Shown here piece by piece: positions 41,943-46,990 of a DNA stretch of 64,000 nucleotides. Both the position numbers and the translations under genes were made by a program. The notes below the pieces were generated by a model that saw only the letters and a program-made list of their open reading frames with translations, made no database searches and was not told the DNA's origin. Within the stretch, counting starts at the first letter, position 1; every line of letters begins with the position of its first letter. Origin of the DNA: Acetobacter peroxydans (lineage in GTDB: Bacteria > Pseudomonadota > Alphaproteobacteria > Acetobacterales > Acetobacteraceae); contig NZ_BJMV01000010.1 of NCBI RefSeq assembly GCF_006539345.1, positions 1 through 64,000 of the forward strand, in the 5' to 3' direction.

Positions 41943-43022
<1,080 letters not shown>

Positions 43023-43025
43023 CTA

Positions 43026-43904
43026 TCAGGCGCAGTAGCCGACATAATCCGGAGCCACCAATGGCAGATCGAGAACGGAAATATTCATATCCTGCAAGAA
43101 GCGTTCTTCGTTCCTGGTTAATCCGCCATCGGCCATGATGGCGTAATGCGGCCCCGCCGACCGTTTGAGGATCTGCCGGGCGTAGCTACGCAGCATCTGG
43201 TCATCAAACCGACAGCCGAGAAACAGAAAGCCCATGTCTTTTCTGCTCTGTCTGACAATGTCGGGTATGGGTGTCTGAATGTCGATCTCCGTAAGAACCT
43301 CTACATAGTCGGAATCCGCCACAAGATAATGATGCGCGGGTGAGACCGCACCATGCGGCTTGTAAAGAAGGGTTTTCCAGCCCTGTGCCCTGTCAACCGG
43401 CACGCCGTCTCCCTCTGCGTCATATGCCCGATACCAACTGGTTTCGCCTACGCCCGCCCTGGGCGTGCCCTGTATCTCGCCCCAGTTCGTGGCGGCCGTG
43501 CTGGTCAGCGCCAACCGCACAATGCCATCGTACCATGTGTCAACAATCATCCTCGGCGCGCAGGCCACGAGCGCGAAATGCAGCGGCGACGGCGCCACTG
43601 GTGCGGAAAATGCCCGGTCCATCAAGGCTATAAGCGTTGCGCGGTGTTTGTTACTTTCAATATACTGCGCCGATGCCCACGGGTTGCCCCGCGCGCGCCG
43701 GGGAAGGGCTACGTTAGTGCTGAAAAACGTGGCCAGTTCGTGCGTGCTGGCGGGCACCCTGCTTCCGAGCGCCCCGTCCTGCGCGATATCGGCCTTTTGC
43801 GGTAATTTCTGAAGCTCCAGCGCCATGGCGGTCATACCCGGCCCCAGATAAGGGGCCAGATGCCCCGCCCGAATGGCGGAAAAAAGCTCATTCCAGCCGG
43901 TCAT
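43026..43904 (-). CDS. SIR2-like domain protein in the nif cluster
   Basis: The protein has 292 residues. The start AIRAGHLAPYLGPGMTAMA resembles the SIR2_2-type nucleotide loop (commonly PFLGAGxS, here with GPGMT). It is followed by IVDTWYDGIVRLAL (counterpart of the NYD motif), LLYKPHGAVSP (HG motif carrying the catalytic histidine of sirtuins) and MGFLFLGCRFDDQMLRSYARQI. It probably binds NAD or a related nucleotide; the activity is unproven. It starts inside the nifT stop (ATGA overlap), so it is the last gene of the nifB operon, just before nifH. Confidence 0.65.
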   Translation of the reverse strand: MTGWNELFSAIRAGHLAPYLGPGMTAMALELQKLPQKADIAQDGALGSRVPASTHELATFFSTNVALPRRARGNPWASAQYIESNKHRATLIALMDRAFSAPVAPSPLHFALVACAPRMIVDTWYDGIVRLALTSTAATNWGEIQGTPRAGVGETSWYRAYDAEGDGVPVDRAQGWKTLLYKPHGAVSPAHHYLVADSDYVEVLTEIDIQTPIPDIVRQSRKDMGFLFLGCRFDDQMLRSYARQILKRSAGPHYAIMADGGLTRNEERFLQDMNISVLDLPLVAPDYVGYCA

Positions 43905-44119
43905 GCGTCGCTCCCCCCGTCAATACGGCGTGCCTCAACCGTAACCGGCAGTCTTGTGCCTTCATCCAAAGCCGGAAGCTCAAGCACCCAGCCATTTTTG
44001 AGGCGGACCCACCCGCCCCACAACGTCTCGCGCTGCTGCTCCATGACAGGCTGCTCCAGGTCCTTTTTGGGCACATACACCGAAAGCCCGCGCTCGTTCC
44101 GCCGCAACATCACCTTCAT
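43901..44119 (-). CDS. nifT: NifT/FixU family protein
   Basis: This small protein of 72 residues has the family pattern MKVMLRRNERGLSVYVPKKDLEQPV and GGWVRLKNGWVLELP. The function is not known; it is common in nif clusters and usually dispensable. It overlaps nifZ upstream and the SIR2-like gene downstream by 4 bp each. Confidence 0.93.
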   Translation of the reverse strand: MKVMLRRNERGLSVYVPKKDLEQPVMEQQRETLWGGWVRLKNGWVLELPALDEGTRLPVTVEARRIDGGSDA

Positions 44120-44400
44120 GATGCACTCCCTGAGTCATTTTCCGCATGAAGCTCGCGCGCGCGCATTCCAACGATCGTGCCGCGCTCTATGAATTCTACC
44201 GCGTAGATATAGTAACGTTGCAGAAAAACCCCGACATCGCGCACGTATCCAACGTCGCCTTTATGCACGAGCATTTCGCCAATCTCGCGTCCGGCGAACG
44301 TGCCGTCATTTTTGACATAGCGTGTCGCGCGAACTTTCGTGCCGGGCATGAAAACCGGCACGCCGCGTGTTTCCACCTCTTCCTCACGCCCCAGTCCCAT
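44116..44400 (-). CDS. nifZ: Nitrogenase P-cluster maturation protein NifZ
   Basis: This protein of 94 residues has the NifZ pattern (GTKVRATRYVKNDGTF, GEMLVHKGDVGYVRDVGVFLQRYYIYAVEF). It assists formation of the second P-cluster in NifDK. ATG 44400 is used; the open frame continues 52 codons upstream within the LRV gene. It overlaps the end of that gene by 17 bp. Confidence 0.92.
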   Translation of the reverse strand: MGLGREEEVETRGVPVFMPGTKVRATRYVKNDGTFAGREIGEMLVHKGDVGYVRDVGVFLQRYYIYAVEFIERGTIVGMRARELHAENDSGSAS

Positions 44401-45220
44401 GATCTTTCTCCCTTTCGTTGGCTTCGTGCGTATCCCGCCCCAGCCTGCGCGCCACCAGATCGCGGATAATTTTCTCGCTATCCGCAGGCAACGTCGCAAC
44501 AATGGAGAGCGGCAACCTCTCCATTGACGTAAACCGGACACGAATGTCGTCGTCACGGGCCAGTTTCAGCAAAAGCCCTTCCTGCGCGCGGGTCGCGACG
44601 ATCTGCCTGACAGTCGGCTCCGCATCACACACCATCAGACCGAGATATTTCCGGTCGATCCGCCGCGCTACCCACCGCCGCACATCCGGCTCAGGGTCAC
44701 GCACGGCCCGCACCAGACACTCGGCCGCAAGCCTGCGCACCACAATCAGGCGAACAAACCAGTCCTCATCCGACAGCATTGCCATCAGGGCTTTTCCGCC
44801 CAGACGGCTTGCCACGGCAAGGCGAACCCGCCGGTCTGGATCGGCCGCCATGCCCTCAATCCGCGCCACAGGCAAGCGCAGGGCAACGCCTGCACGGACT
44901 TCCGCATCGCTGTCGGTTATCAAAGGCGAAAGACGAAATATGGACGCAAACCTGACCGCCAGCGCCCTGACCTCAAAATATGGGTGATCGAGATAACCAT
45001 CGGCTGAACCGGGATTTTCCATAAAAAAGTGTTCAATACGCCGCGCTCGCGCATCCCGGACGCACACACGGCCACGCCTGCACCGCCCATCGCGGTGCAA
45101 TGCCTCATGCCGACACCCCTGACAGTGGAGCTGGTGGCCAAGCCAGTCTTGTGGCTCGGCCGTTTCCCAGGCCGAGGTTTCGTCCCCTGCCTGGTTTTCT
45201 CCGGAAACAGCGTCAGGCAC
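44384..45220 (-). CDS. LRV (leucine-rich repeat variant) protein with N-terminal Fe-S motif
   Basis: The protein has 278 residues from GTG 45220. A four-cysteine cluster (C-x2-C-x10-C-x5-C, in LHCQGCRHEALHRDGRCRRG and VC) is followed by about eight LRV repeats of roughly 24 residues (DPDRRVRLAVASRL, DEDWFVRLIVVRRL, DPEPDVRRWVARRI). This matches the [4Fe-4S] LRV protein of Azotobacter nif clusters. The role is unknown, perhaps binding of nucleic acid or protein. An ATG at 45292 would overlap fdxN by 59 bp and add residues without homology; the start is uncertain. Confidence 0.82.
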   Translation of the reverse strand: MPDAVSGENQAGDETSAWETAEPQDWLGHQLHCQGCRHEALHRDGRCRRGRVCVRDARARRIEHFFMENPGSADGYLDHPYFEVRALAVRFASIFRLSPLITDSDAEVRAGVALRLPVARIEGMAADPDRRVRLAVASRLGGKALMAMLSDEDWFVRLIVVRRLAAECLVRAVRDPEPDVRRWVARRIDRKYLGLMVCDAEPTVRQIVATRAQEGLLLKLARDDDIRVRFTSMERLPLSIVATLPADSEKIIRDLVARRLGRDTHEANEREKDHGTGA

Positions 45221-45233
45221 GACAGCCCAGCCC

Positions 45234-45428
45234 CTAGGCCGGAATGCAGGTCTTGGGCACCGGGCATACAGCCGCGCATTGCGGAACATCAAACTGTCCC
45301 TCGCATTCGGTACATTTCTTGGGATTGATCACGTACAGGTCATTCTTGAGCGAAATAGCGCCATTCGGACACTCGAACTCACAGGCGCCACAAATCGTGC
45401 ATTGCGAGGTAACGATTTTATAAGCCAT
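45234..45428 (-). CDS. fdxN: Nif-associated 2[4Fe-4S] ferredoxin FdxN
   Basis: This protein of 64 residues has two cluster motifs: [16 protein letters not shown] at residues 10-25, and a second with the nif-type insert [18 protein letters not shown]. It likely supplies electrons to NifB or nitrogenase. It lies 30 bp after nifB. Confidence 0.94.
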
Positions 45429-45458: not shown

Positions 45459-46937
45459 TCAGGCGCTCCGGCGCGTTTGCTGCGACTGGCTTATCTGCTT
45501 GTACCAGCAGCCTATGCCTTCCTCGATCCACTCAAGAGCGTATTCATCCGTGGCAACAATACCCGCCGCTGCCAGAGATTCCTTTGGACAATCGCCAATT
45601 TTTCCGCACAGAACAGCGCTCACCCCGTTCAGCGCGGCAATGACGCCATCCAGAGAGGCGTCATCCCCCCAGCCGCCTTCGCAGTACTGTTCCGTTTTGC
45701 GATGGCTCAGAAAACGCACCCCGTGCGGAGAAACCTCGTAAACGAGGAACTCCTTTGCATGACCAAAATGCTGGTTAATGCGCCCGCCGCCTTTCGTCGC
45801 AACGGCCACCAGACAGGTCGGGGCTGTCTCAAGATCGGCCAGTGTTTCACCCACTGCGCGGCGGGCCGCTTCATGCTCGCCGCGCATTTCTGACACCAGT
45901 GCCCGGTAGTCCGCCCGCCTGGAAGGGTCGTAGGAAACGACCTCCGGCACCTGCGTCAGCGTAAACTCCTGTCCGCGGTCTTCACCCAGCAAGCCCACGG
46001 CATCCGCCCGGCACTGGCGACAATGGCGCATGAGCTTCGTGCCGTCCTCAAGTTTGGCCTGTAGGGCCTGCAACTCGGCATGGGTAGGGCCACGCTGGCC
46101 TGTCAGCCCGTAATGCGTGCCGTGCGCGGGGTCAGAAATCAGCGGCATGATGTTGTGCAGGAACGCACCTTTTTCCTTCACCACCCGGTTGACCTCGGCC
46201 AGATGCGTATCATTAACGCCCGGTATCATGACCGAGTTGATTTTTGTCAGAATGCCGCGCGTCGTCAGCATCTCAAGCCCGAGCATCTGGCGCTCATGCA
46301 GGATTTTTGACGCGTCCGGGCCAGTCCACCGGCGGTTTTTATAGAAAATCCAAGGATATATCTCTAGTCCGACCTGCGGGTCGATCATGTTGATGGTAAT
46401 CGTGACATGGTCAATATTCATGGTCGCGATTTCATCGACATGATCAGGCAGCGCCAGACCATTCGTGGAGAGGCACAATTTTATGTCGGGTATTTCATCC
46501 GCTATCCGGCTGAACGTCTCGCGGGTCTTTTTCCAGTCGTAGCAGGCATCGCCCGGCCCTGCGATGCCCAGCACAGAAAGCTGCGGCACTTCATTGGCAA
46601 CAGCAATAACTTTGCGTCTTGCCTGTTCTGGTGTCAGTTTTTCTGAAACAACGCCGGGGCGGCTTTCATTGGCGCAATCATACTTGCGATTGCAGTAGTT
46701 GCACTGGATATTACAGGCTGGCGCAACAGCAACGTGCATACGTGCAAAATAGTGATGCGCCTCTTCCGAGTAGCATGGGTGATCCTTGATTTTTTCCCAG
46801 ATTTCGGCGGACATGGAGTCCGGCTTGTCGGAACTGCCACATTGCGACGACGAACAGCCCCCAGCCGAGAGCGCCGCGCGCATGGTTTCCGTTCCGCTGG
46901 CTGCAAGCGTCTGCAACCCGATCAACTGCCCTCCCAT
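45459..46937 (-). CDS. nifB: FeMo-cofactor biosynthesis radical SAM protein NifB
   Basis: This protein of 492 residues makes the NifB-co (8Fe-9S-C) precursor. The radical SAM cysteines C-x3-C-x2-C are in PACNIQCNYCNRKYDC at about residue 75. Preceding HPCYSEEAHHYFARMHVAVA and later CRQCRADAVGLLGED provide cluster ligands. The C-terminal 120 residues form a NifX-like domain (RINQHFGHAKEFLVYEVSP). It leads the nifB-fdxN-LRV-nifZ-nifT-SIR2 operon. Confidence 0.97.
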   Translation of the reverse strand: MGGQLIGLQTLAASGTETMRAALSAGGCSSSQCGSSDKPDSMSAEIWEKIKDHPCYSEEAHHYFARMHVAVAPACNIQCNYCNRKYDCANESRPGVVSEKLTPEQARRKVIAVANEVPQLSVLGIAGPGDACYDWKKTRETFSRIADEIPDIKLCLSTNGLALPDHVDEIATMNIDHVTITINMIDPQVGLEIYPWIFYKNRRWTGPDASKILHERQMLGLEMLTTRGILTKINSVMIPGVNDTHLAEVNRVVKEKGAFLHNIMPLISDPAHGTHYGLTGQRGPTHAELQALQAKLEDGTKLMRHCRQCRADAVGLLGEDRGQEFTLTQVPEVVSYDPSRRADYRALVSEMRGEHEAARRAVGETLADLETAPTCLVAVATKGGGRINQHFGHAKEFLVYEVSPHGVRFLSHRKTEQYCEGGWGDDASLDGVIAALNGVSAVLCGKIGDCPKESLAAAGIVATDEYALEWIEEGIGCWYKQISQSQQTRRSA

Positions 46938-46975: not shown

Positions 46976-46990
46976 GCAAATTTCATGCCA
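46976..46990 (-). promoter_or_regulatory. Sigma-54 promoter of the nifB operon
   Basis: On the minus strand the site reads TGGCATGAAATTTGC, matching TGGCAYG-N4-TTGC. It lies in the 90-bp gap between nifA and nifB. The start would be near 46964. No perfect TGT-N10-ACA was found in the 200 bp above it; TGT-N10-ACC occurs in the nifA 3' end near 47142. Confidence 0.83.

Follow-up and report, generated by a model that had tools for sequence, protein, structure and literature searches.

A nif-linked SIR2-fold protein encoded beside nifT, with the sirtuin active-site pair lost across the family

Our analysis concerns a gene of Acetobacter peroxydans (assembly GCF_006539345.1) at positions 43026..43904, minus strand, of a stretch of 64,000 nucleotides (contig NZ_BJMV01000010.1, positions 1 to 64,000; hereafter the window), where it lies among nitrogen fixation (nif) genes and overlaps nifT. 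It encodes a protein of predicted SIR2 fold in which, on alignment, one of the two residues that sirtuins rely on is replaced, and the pair is intact in none of the members found by genome searches. The reading that we favor, with a probability of about 0.5, is of a nif-dedicated SIR2-fold protein that has lost its active-site pair and serves as a binding partner of NifT, without nicotinamide adenine dinucleotide (NAD) chemistry, in a dispensable and conditional tuning of nitrogenase maturation. Because of the replaced residue, we read it as a probable helper without enzymatic activity and not as the deacetylase proposed in print. To judge from its residues, it is very probably devoid of SIR2 catalysis, while the role as a partner of NifT is a more tentative proposal whose chances we put slightly below even.

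43026..43904, minus strand: nif-linked SIR2-fold gene, 292 amino acids, ATG start (open reading frame list, Pfam and fold comparison)
43830..43853, minus strand: PYLGPGMT, counterpart of the GAGxS nucleotide loop (sequence comparison)
43533..43535, minus strand: Trp124 codon (in DTWYD), aligned with the catalytic Asn of SIR2 proteins (profile alignment to ThsA)
43353..43355, minus strand: His184 codon (in YKPHG), aligned with the catalytic His of SIR2 proteins (profile alignment to ThsA)

The plus-strand frame of this interval is interrupted by stops, and an open reading frame on the minus strand fills it exactly. An earlier reading of the window (the sequence-only reading) had called the protein SIR2-like, and this is borne out by a match to PF13289 (SIR2_2) of 77.9 bits against a cut-off of 24.5 and by a predicted SIR2-type Rossmann fold, for which ThsA, DSR2, KomC and Avs5 are the nearest solved folds. 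The Pfam scan returned SIR2_2 alone, with neither a sensor domain nor a DRAT domain, and the NCBIfam scan gave no match up to E 1. Catalysis by SIR2 proteins depends on an Asn and a His. A profile of 53 orthologues sets D-T-W-Y-D on the T-T-N-Y-D of ThsA and K-P-H-G on its K-x-H-G, and Trp124 would thus be the equivalent of the catalytic Asn; at this place the ThsA chain 6lhx carries Asn, and 8bto, which we take to be a designed mutant, carries Ala. The sequence-only reading had described counterparts of both the NYD and the HG motif together with a variant nucleotide loop, YLGPGMT. The HG motif stands, as H184, and so does the loop, which has GPGMT in place of GAGxS, whereas the NYD motif does not, the residues being DTWYD.

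The same residues were followed through two collections of orthologues. In a set of 81 sequences D122, W124 and Y125 are present in every member and H184 in 80, and the nucleotide loop keeps its first Gly in 81/81, its second in 71/81 and a Ser or Thr at its last place in 34/81. The Trp count is biased, because the 80 loci from named genomes, the best 80 of 162, were found with two peptide patterns of which one contains the Trp. An insertion after the nucleotide loop (window 43767-43817, approximately residues 30-46) is common to only four of the 81 sequences. Whole-genome searches of samples from the family (200 genomes), the class (385) and the phylum (398) found the nif SIR2 gene in 7, 7 and 17 genomes respectively, together 26 different genomes, whose members were not picked by the Trp-containing pattern, although the class and phylum searches used an alignment of the pattern-found sequences. 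Trp occurs together with His in 14 of these 26 members; in seven more the Trp is accompanied by Ser, Met, Trp, Leu or Tyr in place of His, and the remaining five keep the Asn and have Met or Leu for His. Trp is therefore found in 21/26 and His in 14/26, and the Asn and His dyad is intact in 0/26, two pairs of members being identical or nearly so (G684/G827 and G612/G806). The group that retains Asn is homologous to the other nif-linked proteins by profile comparison (probability 99.7). An eighth hit in the family sample, G091, was dropped (E 1.3e-4, 83 residues, an internal TGA, no NifT), and partial copies in G755 (contig C107), G612 and G806 were left out before counting. The G755 case (locus L109) is a second, partial NifT-SIR2 copy in a genome that has an intact one elsewhere, and G612 and G806 likewise carry partial SIR2 copies.

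As a control, we collected SIR2_2 proteins other than the nif protein from 32 genomes, leaving out fragments on G612 C1526 and G806 C47, and 19/19 of them keep both Asn and His. The motifs were located by motif search in 16 and by eye in three; the Asn motif lies at most one residue from the start of the Pfam match in 18/19, and in the other, L142, it stands 53 residues before the assumed place, owing to uneven flanks of the locus, with the motifs inside a match frame of 290 residues. The control set takes in a protein of G091, a genome without NifT, and proteins of G346, in which NifT is present and the nif SIR2 gene absent. The A. peroxydans contig itself holds, outside the window, a second SIR2_2 protein (G000:C10:136497-136817, L160), whose open frame of 827 amino acids has TTNYD, HG and GAGAS intact.

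A maximum-likelihood tree built from 27 nif-linked proteins and the 19 controls gathers the nif-linked ones on the same side of a branch supported at 100/99. The Asn group forms clade III (100/100), five proteins linked to a DegT-type aminotransferase gene form clade II, and clade I takes in all others, among them one member of the His-to-Tyr pair; the split between clades I and II is only weakly supported (63/66), and the long control branches make the deeper placing unsure. The SIR2 gene is under purifying selection, with ratios of nonsynonymous to synonymous substitution (dN/dS, Nei-Gojobori) of 0.07-0.19 in eight of nine pairs, two of the eight having a nearly saturated dS and the ninth pair an undefined one, and 46 positions are invariant across the 53 sequences. 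Such tight conservation in a family that has lost its catalytic pair by several routes is best read as that of a pseudoenzyme with another task.

The features surrounding the gene are as follows.

43901..44119, minus strand: nifT (TIGR02934, E 5e-29), with a 4-bp overlap (ATGA) with the SIR2 gene
44116..44556, minus strand: nifZ, open reading frame as listed, the real start probably further in
44384..45292, minus strand: gene of an LRV Fe-S protein, open reading frame as listed
45234..45428, minus strand: fdxN-like 4Fe-4S ferredoxin gene, named by its place, the family match being to 4Fe-4S models
45459..46937, minus strand: nifB (TIGR01290, 681.8 bits)
46976..46990, minus strand: sigma54 -24/-12-like element TGGCATGAAATTTGC upstream of nifB, read by eye and missed by a stricter pattern
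43010..43022, minus strand: terminator-like stem and T run directly after the SIR2 stop codon, weak
42903..42917, minus strand: sigma54 -24/-12-like element TGGCATGGAGTTTGC of nifH, read by eye
41943..42893, minus strand: nifH, open reading frame as listed, the real start probably at MGKLRQ

Upstream of the SIR2 gene and codirectional with it are nifA, nifB, the fdxN-like ferredoxin gene, the LRV Fe-S protein gene, nifZ and nifT, and downstream follow nifH, nifD, nifK, nifE and nifN. The elements of nifB and nifH both read by eye as TGGCAT-N5-TTGC, of the -24/-12 type, the latter some 110 bp beyond the end of the SIR2 gene, and the element TGGCATGAAATTTGC likely serves as promoter for the operon whose last gene is the SIR2 gene. 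Terminator-like sites in the region number 4 against 4.8 in shuffles, which makes the stem after the SIR2 stop weak evidence. The common direction, the two sigma54-type elements and this weak stem together make the SIR2 gene look like the last of the nifB operon. A strict NifA/sigma54 pattern with at most one mismatch gave five sites, none at the operon, a number no higher than chance gives, since 38/100 shuffles gave as many or more; TGT-N10-ACA, likewise close to chance, occurs 14 times against a shuffle mean of 9, with 9/100 shuffles reaching that number, and never just upstream of nifB or nifH. The sequence-only reading was thus correct in the overlap of 4 bp with nifT (43026-43904 and 43901-44119 share ATGA), in the end of the gene upstream of the nifH promoter and in its grouping with the nitrogenase maturation genes.

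The nif-linked orthologues whose existence that reading had made a matter for survey are widespread. Among the 80 loci nifB is nearby in all and nifT directly upstream of the SIR2 gene in 79, the exception, L046, having no NifT match. Two orders occur, namely nifB-fdxN-(LRV)-nifZ-nifT-SIR2, after which nifH comes or the stretch ends (26/80), and nifT-SIR2-nifB-fdxN-(LRV)-nifZ (54/80), and as nifT and SIR2 adjoin in both, the pair survives rearrangement of the operon. For intergenic distances in the 81-sequence set the start codon nearest the nifT stop was taken, which biases them to short gaps. Among plasmid records, 28 of the 30 listed (74 had a match), most of them rhizobial, carry the annotation 'SIR2 family protein', and the orthologue of Rhizobium etli p42d stands in the order nifA-nifB-4Fe4S-nifZ-nifT-SIR2. 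In whole genomes, NifT and the SIR2 gene mark the identical 7 of 200 in the family sample, and the 7 SIR2 genomes of the class sample all lie among its 12 NifT genomes. The 20 carriers of the class and phylum samples have NifT in 19 (the exception being G635) and NifH over the cut-off in 17; in the other three NifH is cut by a contig end (G806), is a partial match near a contig start (G612) or has no convincing match (G635).

The pairing differs between clades. All five loci of clade II have a DegT-type aminotransferase gene separating nifT from the SIR2 gene, and in clade III the nearest nif marker is approximately 4.5-7 kb from the SIR2 gene in four of five loci, with none seen in the fifth (G635), which places the tight nifT-SIR2 pairing in clade I. 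Genes of the DegT/DnrJ/EryC1 type are found in many nif clusters (49 of the 80 named loci; also L115-L117, L123, L124 and L112, where the copy is downstream of nifZ), and the window holds no match to them. Around one clade III SIR2 gene (L119:8641-13812) are genes for an Fe/Mn superoxide dismutase and for rhodanese-ankyrin, glutaredoxin, BolA-like, flavodiiron-like and ArsC-like proteins, followed by fdxN and nifB, an oxygen and Fe-S neighborhood.

On this basis we propose that the SIR2 protein would be made together with NifT from a nifB operon of the NifA/sigma54 type, would bind NifT without NAD chemistry, and that the partnership would tune nitrogenase maturation or activity in a manner that is subtle, dispensable and dependent on conditions; nucleotide binding by the reshaped pocket may persist or may be gone. 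We acknowledge that several observations weigh against this proposal. The physical SIR2-NifT complex is putative, proposed from gene order, and loss of the dyad is no proof that all NAD chemistry is lost. The gene is missing from 5 of the 12 NifT genomes of the class sample and does not adjoin nifT in any of the five clade III loci, so NifT does not always need the SIR2 protein, and the carrier G635 lacks NifT as well as any convincing NifH. In published work, cited here and below for the passages available, an insertion mutant of the Mesorhizobium loti gene msi351 is fully effective in symbiosis (PMC3538637), which means that any helper role is subtle or conditional, and phenolic aldehydes also raised the transcript of Zymomonas mobilis ZMO1821, by 3.6- to 4.3-fold (PMC4578398, table), a response outside a nif role.

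A more ambitious form of the proposal, which we regard as possible but doubtful, is that NifT and the SIR2 protein make up a dedicated module in which the SIR2 fold, disabled as an enzyme in several ways and remodeled about a conserved Trp, is a ligand- or partner-sensing adaptor in nitrogenase assembly. The main rival is the ligand-sensing version proper, a non-catalytic sensor of NAD/NADH or ADP-ribose whose nucleotide-binding pocket signals redox state to NifT or to nitrogenase assembly. The retained fold, the first loop Gly, the D122/W124/Y125 set and the near-constant His of the 81 sequences would suit it, since conserved residues on the pocket side, with the dyad gone, agree with a protein that binds its ligand and does not turn it over; the Ser/Thr of the phosphate loop, however, is lost in 47/81 and the second Gly in 10/81, and a Trp at the place of Asn may fill the nicotinamide-ribose site. 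We consider such a sensor rather unlikely.

Less likely still is a functionless passenger carried along in the operon. The effective M. loti mutant (PMC3538637), which partly answers to what the sequence-only reading had named as refutation, the lack of a phenotype on deletion, agrees with a passenger, as do the five NifT genomes without the gene and the partial copies in G755, G612 and G806, but the low dN/dS values, the 46 invariant positions and the adjacency to nifT kept through rearrangement weigh against a gene without function. An NAD-dependent lysine deacylase with nitrogenase proteins or NifA as its targets, the proposal made for ZMO1821, is improbable by a further step. SIR2 homology, location in the nif island, co-induction and the reported acetylation of NifA, NifH and NifK in Z. 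mobilis (PMC8600466) favor that view. Set against it are the family prediction on which, in the passages available, the published deacetylase call rests, the Trp in place of catalytic Asn in 21/26 members and the loss of His in 12/26, the loop Ser/Thr kept in just 34/81, the lack of any NCBIfam match up to E 1, and the presence of only three Cys in the window protein (C231 being the sole invariant one in alignment A2), so that the four-Cys zinc ribbon of a CobB-type sirtuin deacylase is absent.

The sequence-only reading had entertained an NAD-linked sensor of redox or NAD state, a modifier of nitrogenase components, a defence protein or a regulator in the place of DraT. Its SIR2 fold in a nif operon is supported, and sensing without catalysis corresponds to the rather unlikely rival above; the other roles are not supported, an NAD-consuming modifier in view of the 0/26 intact dyads. 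An anti-phage NADase of the ThsA/DSR2 kind, present in the operon by chance, is highly improbable, for although the nearest solved folds are of defence proteins, the dyad is not intact, no sensor domain accompanies SIR2_2, linkage to nif is strict and the PADLOC matches (ThsA 14.3 bits, LmuA 14.6 bits, E ~0.003) reflect likeness at superfamily level; a scan of viral contigs gave 45 pattern stretches with 0 relatives, and phage records gave no match. Just as improbable is a replacement of DraT/DraG as the post-translational switch of nitrogenase: the genome of A. peroxydans has no DRAT match (draG was not searched for), in agreement with the absence of draT noted earlier, but exclusivity is rejected in 25 genomes, DraT occurring in 6 of the 20 carriers as well as 3 of the 5 NifT genomes without the SIR2 gene, and the carrier locus L118 has draT between nifH and the SIR2 gene. 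That interval (L118:11237-12789, genome G905) also holds a toxin-antitoxin pair of the HI1420/Gp49 type.

If the adaptor module is real, a SIR2 pseudoenzyme has been recruited to metalloenzyme maturation, and NifT, whose function is unknown and whose deletion raised nitrogenase activity in Leptolyngbya (PMC6428710), gains a testable partner. Should the active site be dead throughout the family, the deacetylase interpretation ought to give way to tests of a partnership with NifT, and the family would also be a plain example of a SIR2_2 fold disarmed more than once yet kept under selection.

Several known proteins invite comparison. In M. loti R7A a NifA-RpoN promoter precedes nifB-fdxN-nifZ-fixU-msi351, whose final gene, msi351, is described as prokaryotic sirtuin-like; deletion of fixU (nifT) left acetylene reduction unchanged and the plants slightly smaller (PMC3538637). 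Rcc03262 of Rhodobacter capsulatus, adjoining NifT, was detected in the wild type but not in the absence of NifA (PMC6925177). ZMO1821 goes up when nitrogen is being fixed, and its proposal as a deacetylase motivated an acetylome study of nitrogen fixation (PMC8600466); it is also named in PMC8594446. The nif-SIR2 gene order recurs in a figure legend on a Rhodovulum operon (PMC9412634), and the available part of PMC7860042 yielded no SIR2 passage. All three named proteins are SIR2- or sirtuin-like and lie beside nifT/fixU or in a nif island, and it is operon place and description that link them to the window protein; the available passages on them do not discuss catalytic residues. The SIR2 NADases ThsA and DSR2 differ from the window protein, which has Trp for the catalytic Asn, an altered phosphate loop, no sensor or effector domain and a nif context. 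Human FAM118A and FAM118B, unlike the window protein, have both active-site residues, Asn and His, and mutating either stops NAD processing (PMC12700824). The SirAAB proteins, predicted in silico, resemble the window protein in belonging to SIR2_2 and to acetic acid bacteria, but average 1179 amino acids against 292, and the main text on them, as available, mentions neither nif nor nitrogen (PMC11820453); the nif protein is a group other than SirAAB. The loss of the dyad in the nif protein was not found in print within the open-licence literature searched. The counterparts in M. loti, R. capsulatus and Z. mobilis mean that the gene and its regulation were already known, and what our analysis adds to them is the family-wide loss of the active site, set against a control, and the scale of the pairing with nifT.
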